Source: Ornithinibacillus caprae | GTDB taxonomy: Bacteria > Bacillota > Bacilli > Bacillales > Amphibacillaceae | DNA length: 64,000 bases | NCBI RefSeq assembly: GCF_009728145.1 | Contig: NZ_WOCA01000014.1 | Coordinates: 1-64,000, forward strand | Reading direction: 5' to 3' | Part shown: positions 2,477 through 32,577 of the stretch, piece after piece | Position numbering within the stretch: the stretch's first letter is position 1 | How the letters are laid out: every line of letters starts with the position of its first letter | Position numbers and translations under genes: made by a program | Notes under the pieces: generated by a model | Told to the model about the DNA's origin: nothing | Database searches by the model: none | What the model saw: only the letters and a program-made list of their open reading frames with translations

Positions 2477-3073
2477 TTATTGTTCGTATCTCATAGCTAT
2501 TAACGTAGTATCGTCGTCCCTTTCATGATCACTCTGAAGGGCAAAAGATCTAGTAATATCTTCAACAGATGTATGTATATAAAAATTAGAAGAAAGCTCG
2601 GTATTTTTGACCCCATCCGTAAACATAATGAAATTCATCTCATCCTGTAATTTTTCCTCAACAACTTTAAATGGCCGCTTATATCCCGATAAATATCCAG
2701 CACTAGGGATATTTCTTTTCTTCTTTTTATCTTTCGTAACTGTGACAACTCCTATATTACCAATAGAAGAGAAGGAATATCTTTTCCCAAGAAAATCAAT
2801 TTTAAAAATCCCTAAAACCACACCACGTTTATCAAACAATTGCTCATTACACTTTTGAACAAGCTGTTCTACATTGGCATGAATATTTTCTTTGATTATA
2901 TCAATTACTACCCCAGATGACTCCTTGGCATACTCCCCACTCCCTAATCCATCGGCTAACGCACAGACAAATTCATTTTCTGTTTCAATATAATAATAGC
3001 TGTCACCGCTGCAAGCATTTCCCTTTTTAGCTTTTTGATAGACCGAAACATGTACTTTCTTTTCGCTACTCAA
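2477..3073 (-). CDS. rsbX: RsbX, PP2C-type phosphoserine phosphatase
   Basis: 198-aa PP2C-like phosphatase that in B. subtilis dephosphorylates RsbS and RsbR and so resets the stressosome after activation. The metal-binding motifs ADGLGSGEYA and FTDGV are present, and the length matches the family (about 199 aa). The start is TTG, overlapping the sigB stop by 4 nt (TTGA), with GGAGG 7 nt upstream, indicating translational coupling. It is the last gene of the eight-gene stress operon, the same position as in B. subtilis. Confidence 0.93.
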   Translation of the reverse strand: MSSEKKVHVSVYQKAKKGNACSGDSYYYIETENEFVCALADGLGSGEYAKESSGVVIDIIKENIHANVEQLVQKCNEQLFDKRGVVLGIFKIDFLGKRYSFSSIGNIGVVTVTKDKKKKRNIPSAGYLSGYKRPFKVVEEKLQDEMNFIMFTDGVKNTELSSNFYIHTSVEDITRSFALQSDHERDDDTTLIAMRYEQ

Positions 3074-3861
3074 TCTAATACCTCCGTACTGTCAGATTGG
3101 ATAGCCTCACGAAGTTTACGTAATGAACGGCGCATCAGCCTCGAAACATGCATCTGTGAAATTCCTAACAGCTCTCCAATTTCCTTTTGGCTCATATTAT
3201 CAAAATAAGTATATTTTAATATTTCTTGCTCTCTTTCTGAAAGTATGGGAAGAATTTTATCAATCAACATCTTCAAATCTGCTTGATTATATCCGTTCTC
3301 TTCATTCCCAATTAAATCAAGGATCGCAACAGCTTTTCCTTCAGAACTAACATCTACTTTCCGATCAACGGATAACGCGTTATAACTCCGCCCCATTTCC
3401 ATCGTTTCTAGAATATCTTCCTCAGACACTTCCAGATGTTTTGCAATTTCAGCAACTGTAGGAGCCTTTTGATTTAAAGTGGTTAATTCATCTACTGCTT
3501 TTTTAATTTTAGGACCCAGTTCTTTGATTCTTCGTGGAACATGAACGCTCCATGTCTTATCACGAATAAATCGTTTTATCTCACCAACAATAGTTGGAAT
3601 GGCAAAGGATTCAAATGTTTTACCATAAGATACATCAAATCGACGAACAGCTTGAAGAAGACCTATCATCCCTACTTGGACTAAGTCTTCATGAATACTA
3701 CTGTTTTTTGAGTATTTTCGAGAAATTGATTCTACGAGATCTTGGTATGCAAGGACAATTTTTTGTTGAATATGTTCATCTGTAGGATTTTCTTGCAATT
3801 TTTTAATCCATTGGTAAACCTCATCTCTTCCTTTATTTGGTGGTTGAGACGTGGTCGTCAT
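3070..3861 (-). CDS. sigB: RNA polymerase sigma factor SigB
   Basis: 263-aa general-stress sigma factor. Region 2 (EDLVQVGMIGLLQAVRRFD), region 3 (WSVHVPRRIKELGP) and a region 4.2 helix-turn-helix (SQKEIGELLGISQMHVSR) are present. The ATG at 3861 is chosen because GGTGG lies just upstream and the protein then matches the usual length; an ATG 7 codons earlier lacks a ribosome site. The gene overlaps rsbW by 29 nt, consistent with stoichiometric synthesis of sigma factor and anti-sigma factor. Expected to be held by RsbW until RsbV is dephosphorylated. Confidence 0.95.
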   Translation of the reverse strand: MTTTSQPPNKGRDEVYQWIKKLQENPTDEHIQQKIVLAYQDLVESISRKYSKNSSIHEDLVQVGMIGLLQAVRRFDVSYGKTFESFAIPTIVGEIKRFIRDKTWSVHVPRRIKELGPKIKKAVDELTTLNQKAPTVAEIAKHLEVSEEDILETMEMGRSYNALSVDRKVDVSSEGKAVAILDLIGNEENGYNQADLKMLIDKILPILSEREQEILKYTYFDNMSQKEIGELLGISQMHVSRLMRRSLRKLREAIQSDSTEVLD

Positions 3862-30697: not shown

Positions 30698-30842
30698 TTT
30701 TTCCCCACCTCTTTGTTGTAATATAACAAAACTCGTAAGAAATGTAATCAAAAATAAAATCATAATCAAACATTTTGCAAATAAGATGAAAAAAAGTAGA
30801 TAATAGTAACATGGACGGAAGAAACTTGAGGGAGTGAATGAA

Positions 30843-31490
30843 ATGTTAGCATTGGATCATATTGTCCTTGCTGGTAAAAACATTGAAGAAGATAGTACTA
30901 ATTATGGACGAAAGTTTGCAATTAAAGCAATTAAAGGCGGCGAACATGATGAATGGGGGACTTATAATTACTTAGCCTATTTTTCCAATGAAAGCTATCT
31001 TGAATGGTTAGGTATTCAAGATATAGAAAAAGCAAAAAATAGTGCTAATCCACTAATTCAACATCTAGTGTACGAAATAGATAATCATGTACTAGCTCCA
31101 TTTCAATTCGCTCTTCGAACCAATAATATGGATCATTACGTTGAACACTTTAAAGATAATAACATTCCATATCACGGTCCTTTTTTCGGACAACGAAAAA
31201 GACCAGATGGCTCTAATTTAACCTGGAGAATGCTATTTCCAGCATATGACCATACAAAAGAAATGCTCCCTTTCTTGATTGAATGGGGTTCAGACTCTGG
31301 TGGCCCTTCTATTAAAAGCTTATCTAACCCACAAGCAATTTTGAATATTTATTTTGGGGGAATTGATAAAGAGCGTTTTGAACAGATTTATCAACTTAAA
31401 CCAAAACGATTATTAAAAAATCAATTCACACTACAAAATGCAAAGATCCTTTTTAGTGATGAAAGAAAGCTTAGCTTTGATTTAGCATAG
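30843..31490 (+). CDS. VOC / glyoxalase-like domain protein
   Basis: 215-aa protein beginning LALDHIVLAGKNIEE, typical of the Glyoxalase_3 (PF13468) group of the vicinal-oxygen-chelate superfamily. His (LDHIV) and Glu (YLEWLG) fit metal-ligand positions. ATG 30843 has GAGGG 10 nt upstream; a GTG 3 codons earlier overlaps that site. Catalytic role unknown; it stands alone between a divergent regulator gene and the minisatellite. Confidence 0.8.
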   Translation: MLALDHIVLAGKNIEEDSTNYGRKFAIKAIKGGEHDEWGTYNYLAYFSNESYLEWLGIQDIEKAKNSANPLIQHLVYEIDNHVLAPFQFALRTNNMDHYVEHFKDNNIPYHGPFFGQRKRPDGSNLTWRMLFPAYDHTKEMLPFLIEWGSDSGGPSIKSLSNPQAILNIYFGGIDKERFEQIYQLKPKRLLKNQFTLQNAKILFSDERKLSFDLA

Positions 31491-31498
31491 TGTTAAAA

Positions 31499-31529
31499 GA
31501 GGATGTGACAGGGTCGCATCCTCCTTTTT
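31499..31529 (+). terminator. terminator after the VOC gene
   Basis: GAGGATG ... CATCCTC stem followed by CTTTTTAA. It marks the left limit of the non-coding repeat region. Confidence 0.75.
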
Positions 31530-31572: not shown

Positions 31573-32118
31573 GTGTCCGATGTTCCCGCTCTCGTGTCCG
31601 ATACTCCTGCTCCTGTGTCCGTTGTTTCCGCTCTCGTGTCCGATATTTCCCCTCCTGTGTCCGATGTTTCCCCTCTCGTGTCCGATGTTTCCCCTCTCGT
31701 GTCCGATGTTTCCGCTCTCGTGTCCGATGTTCCCGCTCCTGTGTCCGATGTTCCCGCTCTCGTGTCCGATACTCCCCCTCCTGTGTCCGATGTTCCCCCT
31801 TCTGTGTCCGATACTCCTACTCATCCGTCCGATGTTTCCGCTCTCGTGTCCGATGTTCCCCCTCCTGTGTCCGATGTTCCCGCTCTCGTGTCCGATGTTT
31901 CCGCTCTCGTGTCCGATGTTTCCGCTCTCGTGTCCGATATTTCCCCTCCTGTGTCCGATACTCCCCCTCACGTGTCCGATGTTTCCCCTCTCGTGTCCGA
32001 TGTTCCCGCTCTCGTGTCCGATGTTTCCCCTCTCGTGTCCGATGTTTCCCCTCCTGCGTCCGATGTTTCCTCTCTCGTGTCCGATACTCCTGCTCATCCG
32101 TCCGATGACTCTCCTCCT
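31573..32118. repeat. 21-bp tandem repeat array (26 units)
   Basis: Twenty-six consecutive, gap-free 21-bp units fill 546 bp. The left half of each unit, GTGTCCGAT, is nearly invariant; variation is confined to a few positions in the pyrimidine-rich right half (T/C, G/C alternatives). Because 21 is divisible by 3, several frames stay open across the array: heptad VSDVPAL and CPMFPLS on plus, GNIGHER on minus. None has a convincing ribosome site, and the array lies between two convergent terminators, so it is treated as non-coding. Flanking single-copy DNA carries only degenerate partial units. Confidence 0.93.
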
Positions 32119-32144
32119 TCAACCAGTTCAAATCAATCCACCAT

Positions 32145-32177
32145 TAAAAAAATCACCCTTCTATACAGAAGAGTGAT
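32145..32177 (-). terminator. terminator after the thioredoxin gene
   Basis: ATCACTCTTC / GAAGGGTGAT on the minus strand followed by TTTTTTT. It closes the right side of the repeat region. Confidence 0.75.
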
Positions 32178-32188
32178 CATTATTAAAT

Positions 32189-32512
32189 CTATCCTAATTG
32201 CTGATGTAGAAATTCAGTTACTGATTCTGGAGTTTTGGTATATGCACTATGCTGATGTGCTTTTTTCTCTCCATTTTGGAAAATTAAGATACTAGGAATT
32301 CCCATTACTTCATATTTCTGAGCGATTCCTTCTATTTCATCGCTGTTTACTTCGTACCATTTGTAGTTATTAAATTCTTCTAAAATTCCATCGATGAACA
32401 TGTCCATTCGCTTACAATCTGGACACCAATCTGCATAGAATTTCACAATCACCGGTTCTTCACTTTCAATTATTTCATTAAATTTCTCTTCTGTTTGAAT
32501 ATGTTCCATCAT
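32189..32512 (-). CDS. thioredoxin-like protein (YdbP-like)
   Basis: 107-aa thioredoxin-fold protein with active site WCPDCKRM (instead of the classical WCGPC) and cis-Pro motif GIPSILIF. ATG 32512 is favoured: AAGGGG is 5 nt away, while the GTG two codons earlier overlaps that ribosome site. WCPDC members are found in Bacillaceae as accessory thiol oxidoreductases; the partner is unknown. Confidence 0.86.
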   Translation of the reverse strand: MMEHIQTEEKFNEIIESEEPVIVKFYADWCPDCKRMDMFIDGILEEFNNYKWYEVNSDEIEGIAQKYEVMGIPSILIFQNGEKKAHQHSAYTKTPESVTEFLHQQLG

Positions 32513-32577
32513 CGTCACCCCTTTTGCTTACTATAGCCTATTGTAAGGTTTTTATAAAAGTTTGTCTTATAGTTTGC

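Follow-up and report, generated by a model that had tools for sequence, protein, structure and literature searches.

A 21-bp satellite array of Ornithinibacillus caprae belongs to a repeat family linked to NERD-domain genes

A 64,000-nt stretch of the Ornithinibacillus caprae genome, here called the window, carries a long tandem array in the gap between two convergent genes, which raises the question of what kind of repeat this is and how it came to be there. The array (31573..32118, plus strand) consists of 26 units of 21 bp that follow one another without gaps over 546 bp, as an earlier note on this DNA had described (TRF: 24.4 copies, score 616). Its units join a core, GTGTCCGATR (YATCGGACAC on the reverse strand), to a 12-nt linker. 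The near-invariant part of the unit singled out by the note is real: GTGTCCGAT is exact in 22 of the 26 units, and most variation falls at unit positions 10, 11, 13, 15, 16, 20 and 21. The left neighbour is a Glyoxalase_3 or VOC-type gene (30843..31490, plus strand; start picked by eye, the longest ORF beginning at 30834) whose terminator-like hairpin and T run (31499..31523, plus strand) directly precede the array. Directly after the array comes the terminator-like hairpin (32151..32178, minus strand) of the convergent thioredoxin gene (32189..32518, minus strand), which all 11 genomes of the genus have. Shuffled sequence yields 0.4 ± 0.6 such hairpins against the two found, and the array does lie between terminator-like hairpins of the VOC-type and thioredoxin genes, as had been proposed.

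The gene pair is old, and the array at its gap is not. By eye, the gap after the thioredoxin gene in ten genus relatives is short, with a hairpin and a VOC-type gene, in eight and has other neighbours in two, and the window repeat is found (≤2 mismatches) in none of the ten. A two-unit pattern, also with ≤2 mismatches, gives 211 and 135 matches in the O. caprae genome and none when reversed, and has no match in 60 relatives. Searching the O. caprae genome with the window array recovers 31 matching pieces on nine contigs and a weak one on a tenth. Within 777 kb of O. caprae sequence there are 24 21-bp arrays of at least four units (25 under a looser rule), ranging from 8 to 47 units. The idea that they always sit between convergent genes fails, because only 11 of the 25 do; another 11 occupy tandem gaps, one a divergent gap, and two at a stretch end are of undetermined type. 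The genome also holds 52-nt arrays, with 18 stretches of three or more copies in the same 777 kb (TRF). Where simple longest-ORF gene calls leave a gap of 30 bp or more, an array of either family occupies 16 of 92 such gaps if they are convergent, 23 of 302 if tandem and 2 of 93 if divergent; because the 777-kb stretches were picked for arrays, only the comparison between gap classes is meaningful. With a period of 20–21 nt, at least four repeats and several related arrays in the genome outside genes, the window array by itself simply adds one more member to a satellite class that is already known. One 27-unit array (G000:C36:133043-133608, G000 being O. caprae) separates two same-strand genes that we take to be purN and purH, and so lies inside a likely operon.

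Across genomes, the unit resolves into a conserved core of ~9 nt, TGTCCGATR, and a variable 12-nt linker. The expectation that the repeat family exists in other Bacillaceae is borne out: among the matches listed, the same core and pitch occur in Sporosarcina koreensis, Fredinandcohnia onubensis and Bacillus sp. REN16 and SJS, and also in Ureibacillus and Shouchella. Linkers are near random between the genera that share the core (O. caprae, S. koreensis, F. onubensis, REN16 and SJS). In four genomes (117, 54, 51 and 266 units), the nine core columns carry ~1.1–2.0 bits and most linker columns <0.6. Exact neighbouring cores are spaced by 21 nt in 335 of 393 cases in O. caprae and in 62 of 77 and 161 of 178 elsewhere; the remaining spacings are mostly multiples of 21, with some of 19, 20, 22 or 23. 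Of the 397 genomes that represent the order, 8, from 4 genera, have three-unit core matches, and three control 8-mers (the reversed core, a second one shuffled, and its reversal) give three-unit matches in none. Among the eight genomes that have TGTCCGAT triplets, G356, G364 and G396 have only one or two matches each, which continue differently (TGTCCGATT); the G364 match resembles a perfect short repeat. As regards species specificity, the whole 21-bp unit is absent from 60 relatives and the core is common to other genera. The core, TGTCCGATA, is not palindromic.

Orthologous arrays in two Fredinandcohnia genomes show that core and linker evolve at different rates. In five of six pairs (excluding the sixth, which is a duplicated cluster), changes amount to 8/270 in the core, 57/389 in linkers and 128/984 in flanks, and counting by phase gives 10/285 for the core versus 58/383 for linkers (p = 2.7e-7). 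The core thus changes 4–5 times more slowly than the linkers, which change as fast as the flanks, indicating that the core is under selection and that the linkers drift like their surroundings. The earlier note had offered either a protein-binding array or an unusual DNA structure. The former fits best, given a core that is kept and linkers that drift; we found no need for the latter. Nor is the C/T versus G/A strand asymmetry the key feature that it had seemed, because the linkers are AT-rich or mixed in relatives that share the core, and an asymmetry confined to O. caprae linkers cannot be essential. A C/T-rich strand as the cause of the arrays was rejected on the same ground, that relatives share the core and have no such strand.

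A second, unrelated core, TCGCGG, gives four-unit matches in 11 of 397 genomes; the reversed 6-mer GGCGCT does so in 7 of 397, so that recurrence of TCGCGG alone is not special. In S. koreensis, a 40-kb region (G427:C4:1460000-1499999; loci L290 and L291) holds more than 20 arrays of five units each, and many of its arrays share, by eye, an end tail ATCGGCATCCAGACACAATTCA. In Fredinandcohnia, a second 21-bp array with another core, AATTGYGCCCTA, adjoins a TGTCCGATA array (L123, about 2990-3150; by eye). The linkers of successive units recur in the same order both at different loci and between two genomes (G404 C23/C33 and G365 C21/C22), and multi-unit blocks have therefore been copied as wholes. 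A CRISPR array was considered and rejected: CRISPRs have repeats of about 21–48 nt, longer spacers and cas genes, and here the conserved part is 9 nt and the linker 12 nt.

Comparison of the genes that flank arrays in different genomes identified one recurrent family, a NERD-domain protein of ~330 aa. The O. caprae gene lies outside the window (G000:C4:91615-92649) and has arrays with the same core on both sides (91127-91551 and 92754-92942). Its relatives, at 28–35% identity, adjoin TGTCCGATA arrays in two Fredinandcohnia genomes, REN16 and Sporosarcina, such that a NERD gene stands beside an array in five of five array-rich TGTCCGATA genomes examined; in Bacillus sp. SJS, a locus found by its repeat alone proved to have one too. 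A NERD search in 29 genomes placed NERD genes directly behind TCGCGG arrays in five genomes. At 11 NERD loci (TGTCCGATA, including SJS, and TCGCGG), the upstream array has its core on the coding strand of the NERD gene. Besides NERD, two adjacent genes, presumably glyA and upp, flank arrays in both O. caprae and Fredinandcohnia; other neighbour matches comprise four weaker or partial ones between Sporosarcina and O. caprae and one between REN16 and Sporosarcina. The O. caprae NERD gene and its two arrays (G000:C4:91127-92942; L159:1127-2943) form a block between two other genes, which we take to be spoIIID and mbl, neighbours in B. subtilis, and the block therefore looks inserted.

Arrays and NERD genes are linked well beyond these loci. 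We scored arrays at 107 of 216 NERD matches, taken from the matches listed and from fetched loci, using a detector that accepts any 6-mer occurring at least four times in register at a period of 15 to 60 within 900 bp of the gene, and which missed one array already known. Arrays were present at 60 of the 107, with repeats of 20–21 nt or twice that in 41 (one of these calls is weak, being four copies of a 6-mer at 41 nt; G000 C22:225204) and of 51–53 nt in 19. Two NERD clades together comprise 79 genes, of which 57 have a 20–21 or 51–53-nt array within 900 bp and 22 have none by the detector. Among control ORFs, which were drawn from ten random stretches of genomes that carry arrays, the figure is 18 of 150 (Fisher p = 4e-20, treating relatives as independent). 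Leaving out nine loci fetched earlier for their arrays gives 49 of 70, and the genus relatives, which were not picked for arrays, give 16 of 18. A third clade has an array at 1 of 18 genes. O. caprae has seven NERD matches genome-wide, one of which (C4:48994) is of the array-linked kind and has no array by the detector.

The length of the repeat goes with the NERD clade. In a quick, midpoint-rooted tree of 97 NERD proteins of 240–380 aa, with clade limits read from the tree, a 24-member clade (SH-aLRT 100) has eighteen 52-nt arrays, zero 21-nt arrays and six genes without an array. A further 55 proteins, comprising a branch of 53 (SH-aLRT 85) and two long Sporosarcina branches at its base, have thirty-nine 20–21-nt arrays, zero 52-nt arrays and sixteen genes without. 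Length and clade therefore correspond in 18/18 and 39/39 cases (18/0 versus 0/39, with relatives treated as independent). The remaining, 18-member clade I is array-free in 17; its one exception, on a long branch (G427 C4:325237), lies beside a 52-nt array. On this tree, two switches between the 52 and 21 labels are required. The core itself is not a simple function of NERD descent. Every NERD lineage has a core of its own and close orthologues do share cores, G149 and G416 having the same three different cores at three NERD loci, but the nearer relatives of the O. caprae NERD protein have other cores and more distant ones share its core.

Across 45 array-linked NERD proteins, six of them labelled as of the 52-nt kind, Asp79, Glu/Asp92 and Lys94 (Glu/Asp-x-Lys) are invariant, as are zinc cysteines 236, 253 and 256; cysteine 239 is kept in 43. 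The structure predicted for the REN16 protein is poor overall (mean pLDDT 49.8; three input sequences), but its C-terminal part (pLDDT about 60–70) resembles a winged helix in having three helices and two short strands. The protein combines nuclease residues, a CxxC-CxxC zinc ribbon and, probably, a winged helix-turn-helix. A sequence search of solved structures with the NERD protein returned only two zinc-ribbon chains (E = 0.52). The putative recognition helices of TGTCCGATA proteins from four lineages are modestly alike (0.46 versus 0.32 in random sets, p = 0.02), and those of TCGCGG proteins are not (0.28, p = 0.77). A motif, [YFL]RL[LI][KR], occurs in exactly the six TGTCCGATA proteins among 55, having been chosen after these were viewed.

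By analogy with RAYT transposases, which spread REP sequences, including orphan REPs that lie apart from the RAYT gene, we consider the window array to be, probably, an orphan target array of a two-part NERD–satellite element. The window holds no NERD gene, and the array-bearing 777 kb contain only two, at L159 (21-nt arrays) and L248 (G000:C16, 52-nt array); with one NERD-linked locus for each family, the window array would be an orphan member. At the linked loci, arrays do lie beside a NERD gene of the matching clade. One part of the element would be a gene, present in one copy, whose product joins a NERD nuclease domain to a zinc ribbon and a probable winged helix; the other would be the arrays, as tandem sites with a ~9-nt core at fixed pitch. 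The winged helix may read the core, and the geometry of the protein may set the pitch, with 20–21 nt (two helical turns, 2 × 10.5 bp) in one clade and 51–53 nt (five turns, 5 × 10.5 bp) in the other. Nuclease activity could help arrays to arise and to spread, as RAYT transposases spread REP sequences, to gene ends, the least harmful sites, which would then be merely tolerant of them. A bolder generalization, that NERD–zinc ribbon–winged helix proteins make the satellites of Bacillaceae, each with its own core and a cut distance of two or five helical turns fixed by its clade, writing and scattering arrays whose length is constant and whose linkers are free to vary, is a conjecture that we put forward tentatively and that may well be wrong. 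If true, it would define self-spreading elements of a kind that has no relation to known transposases, and would explain two satellite lengths that have no common sequence.

The arrays might instead be phased sites for organizing the nucleoid or transcription, bound by the NERD or another protein as scaffolds, roadblocks or operators and spread by slippage and recombination without the help of a nuclease, an idea near that of Subirana and Messeguer. This would account for the conserved core, for a 21-bp pitch of two helical turns and for the position of arrays at gene ends; an array upstream of a NERD gene is a possible operator, and a phased structural or regulatory role would yield the same array–NERD linkage. 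Alone, however, it leaves unexplained why the linked gene has nuclease residues and why the array is absent from the window locus in genus relatives, and we think it rather unlikely. Another possibility is neutral slippage, with NERD genes and arrays merely sharing tolerant gaps, and here replication polarity is relevant. Taking as leading the G-rich strand of the surrounding 20 kb, rather than mapping an origin, the purine (ATCGGACA) strand is leading in 24 of 25 21-nt arrays of O. caprae (binomial p = 1.5e-6; 23 of 24 over the 24-array count), the lone exception (C9:80372-80938 of G000) being a 42-nt double unit of diverged sequence. The 52-nt arrays of O. caprae keep the same strand leading in 18 of 18 (p = 7.6e-6; for example, L155:12810-13345). 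Polarity is strong where arrays are long and homogeneous, a point in favour of slippage; short arrays with variable linkers are non-polar, as are isolated cores outside arrays (6 versus 5). The slow core, the linkage far above control ORFs and the rule of length by NERD clade nevertheless make neutral slippage an improbable account. The same polarity could mark a chromosome signal like Chi, SRS or KOPS, the more so because three polar 52-nt arrays (L155, L246 and L248) lie in gaps whose flanking genes are both head-on to replication. But the opposite strand leads in 21 of 26 arrays with the same core in Fredinandcohnia and REN16 and, weakly, in 34 of 52 in Sporosarcina (many of both sets being clustered or orthologous), TCGCGG arrays are split 10/19, and of the motifs that we take for polar chromosome signals, AGCGG occurs 60 times against 60.6 expected and GAGAAGGG not at all. 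As a general role, a polar signal is thus very improbable. Because the polarity rule is not general across genomes, we read polarity as a by-product of long-array formation in O. caprae, to which fork-linked synthesis may have given its direction, and not as a function.

Two further possibilities would have the array expressed. A coding repeat, making heptapeptide proteins such as VSDVPAL or NIGHERG, is suggested by a unit length divisible by 3 and by several open frames. Two plus-strand frames and one minus-strand frame span the whole array; a fourth, on the minus strand, is open only over 31817-32131, which makes the earlier count of four open frames out of six slightly generous. There are also fewer stops than in column shuffles, both in two minus frames of O. 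caprae (14 versus 31 and 18 versus 35) and in Sporosarcina (plus frames, 3 versus 10 and 4 versus 13; a minus frame, 25 versus 37). These deficits, however, extend over several frames and both strands, as expected from the likeness of units within an array, and in Fredinandcohnia and REN16 every frame has stops (10–46 per frame in 107 units), so that translation is not the reason for core conservation there. Every codon position falls within the conserved core, spacings of 19, 20, 22 or 23 also occur, the two ORFs tested against Pfam gave nothing above cut-off, and GNIGHER/VSDVPAL-type peptides are the plain translation of the repeat. A coding role is thus very improbable and the array is probably not translated, in line with the original view that it need not be. 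We give equally little credence to an RNA element read from transcripts at gene 3′ ends. Arrays do occur behind terminators and between operon genes, and 52-nt satellites of B. coagulans are reported to be transcribed in the available part of one study (PMC8625621). Yet the orientation of the core with respect to its flanking genes varies between genomes, being antisense in 11 of 11 tandem gaps of O. caprae and sense in 13 of 19 of Fredinandcohnia and REN16, and there is no Rfam match.

The reading as a NERD–satellite element bears on a published puzzle. In the parts of their paper available to us, Subirana and Messeguer (2021) count 781 arrays of 20–21 nt and 1886 of 51–53 nt in 176 Bacillus genomes, satellites of constant length and variable sequence that they call enigmatic and for which nucleoid binding or small RNAs are proposed (PMC8161180). 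The arrays described here are like these in length, in forming dispersed families, in having a short conserved signal within a variable unit and in being mostly noncoding. They differ in that the published families are species-specific, as far as that text goes, whereas the core found here is common to several genera; the same text describes neither a partner gene nor replication polarity and does not say why there are two lengths, whereas here NERD genes are linked (PMC8161180). Borg elements likewise have dispersed tandem arrays, whose formation is considered enigmatic with slippage proposed, but the available portion of that work describes perfect units of many lengths, A-biased and often in genes, and names no partner protein (PMC9879509). 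PglW-type defence proteins are alike in their NERD part only, which matches PglW weakly (E = 5e-5) and MADS6 at 6.9e-10, far below that model's cut-off (PADLOC, NCBIfam); the proteins here are about 330 aa, with a zinc ribbon and helix-turn-helix, and have none of the kinase or other defence domains. In the open-access literature, we found no description of a two-part NERD–satellite system or of a NERD domain with tandem repeats; work there that mentions a NERD domain alongside intergenic sequence and repeats is on archaeal mobile elements. Noncoding 20–21- and 52-nt Bacillus satellites are already published, and the NERD–array linkage is the new part. It may explain the long-standing puzzle of bacterial satellites, and by tying each satellite class to one NERD clade makes that puzzle testable, with a named protein, a core and a predicted pitch. 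Should the NERD protein build arrays, it would represent a new mechanism by which bacteria make repetitive DNA; should it bind them and no more, the two would form a new system of the nucleoid or of regulation. In both cases, these NERD proteins, for which no function is known, gain a candidate substrate.

REP/RAYT systems are relevant here in two ways. Dispersal of the present arrays by a RAYT was rejected, because the 10 Y1_Tnp loci examined, including one from O. caprae, have no core within about 1.5 kb. That O. caprae locus, the one examined among four O. caprae matches, has no TGTCCGAT or 52-nt core nearby; its RAYT-like Y1_Tnp gene (L298; G000:C22:272765) lies amid other short repeats, GGGTCAGGTCC...GTCCC, which form a separate repeat system. 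As a model, REP/RAYT resembles the proposed element in having one enzyme gene flanked by repeats and many orphan repeats in other gene gaps. By eye, the 52-nt units even carry short inverted repeats. REP/RAYT, however, pairs a Y1 (HUH) transposase with palindromes, whereas the element proposed here would pair a NERD nuclease with non-palindromic, tandem 21-nt units.
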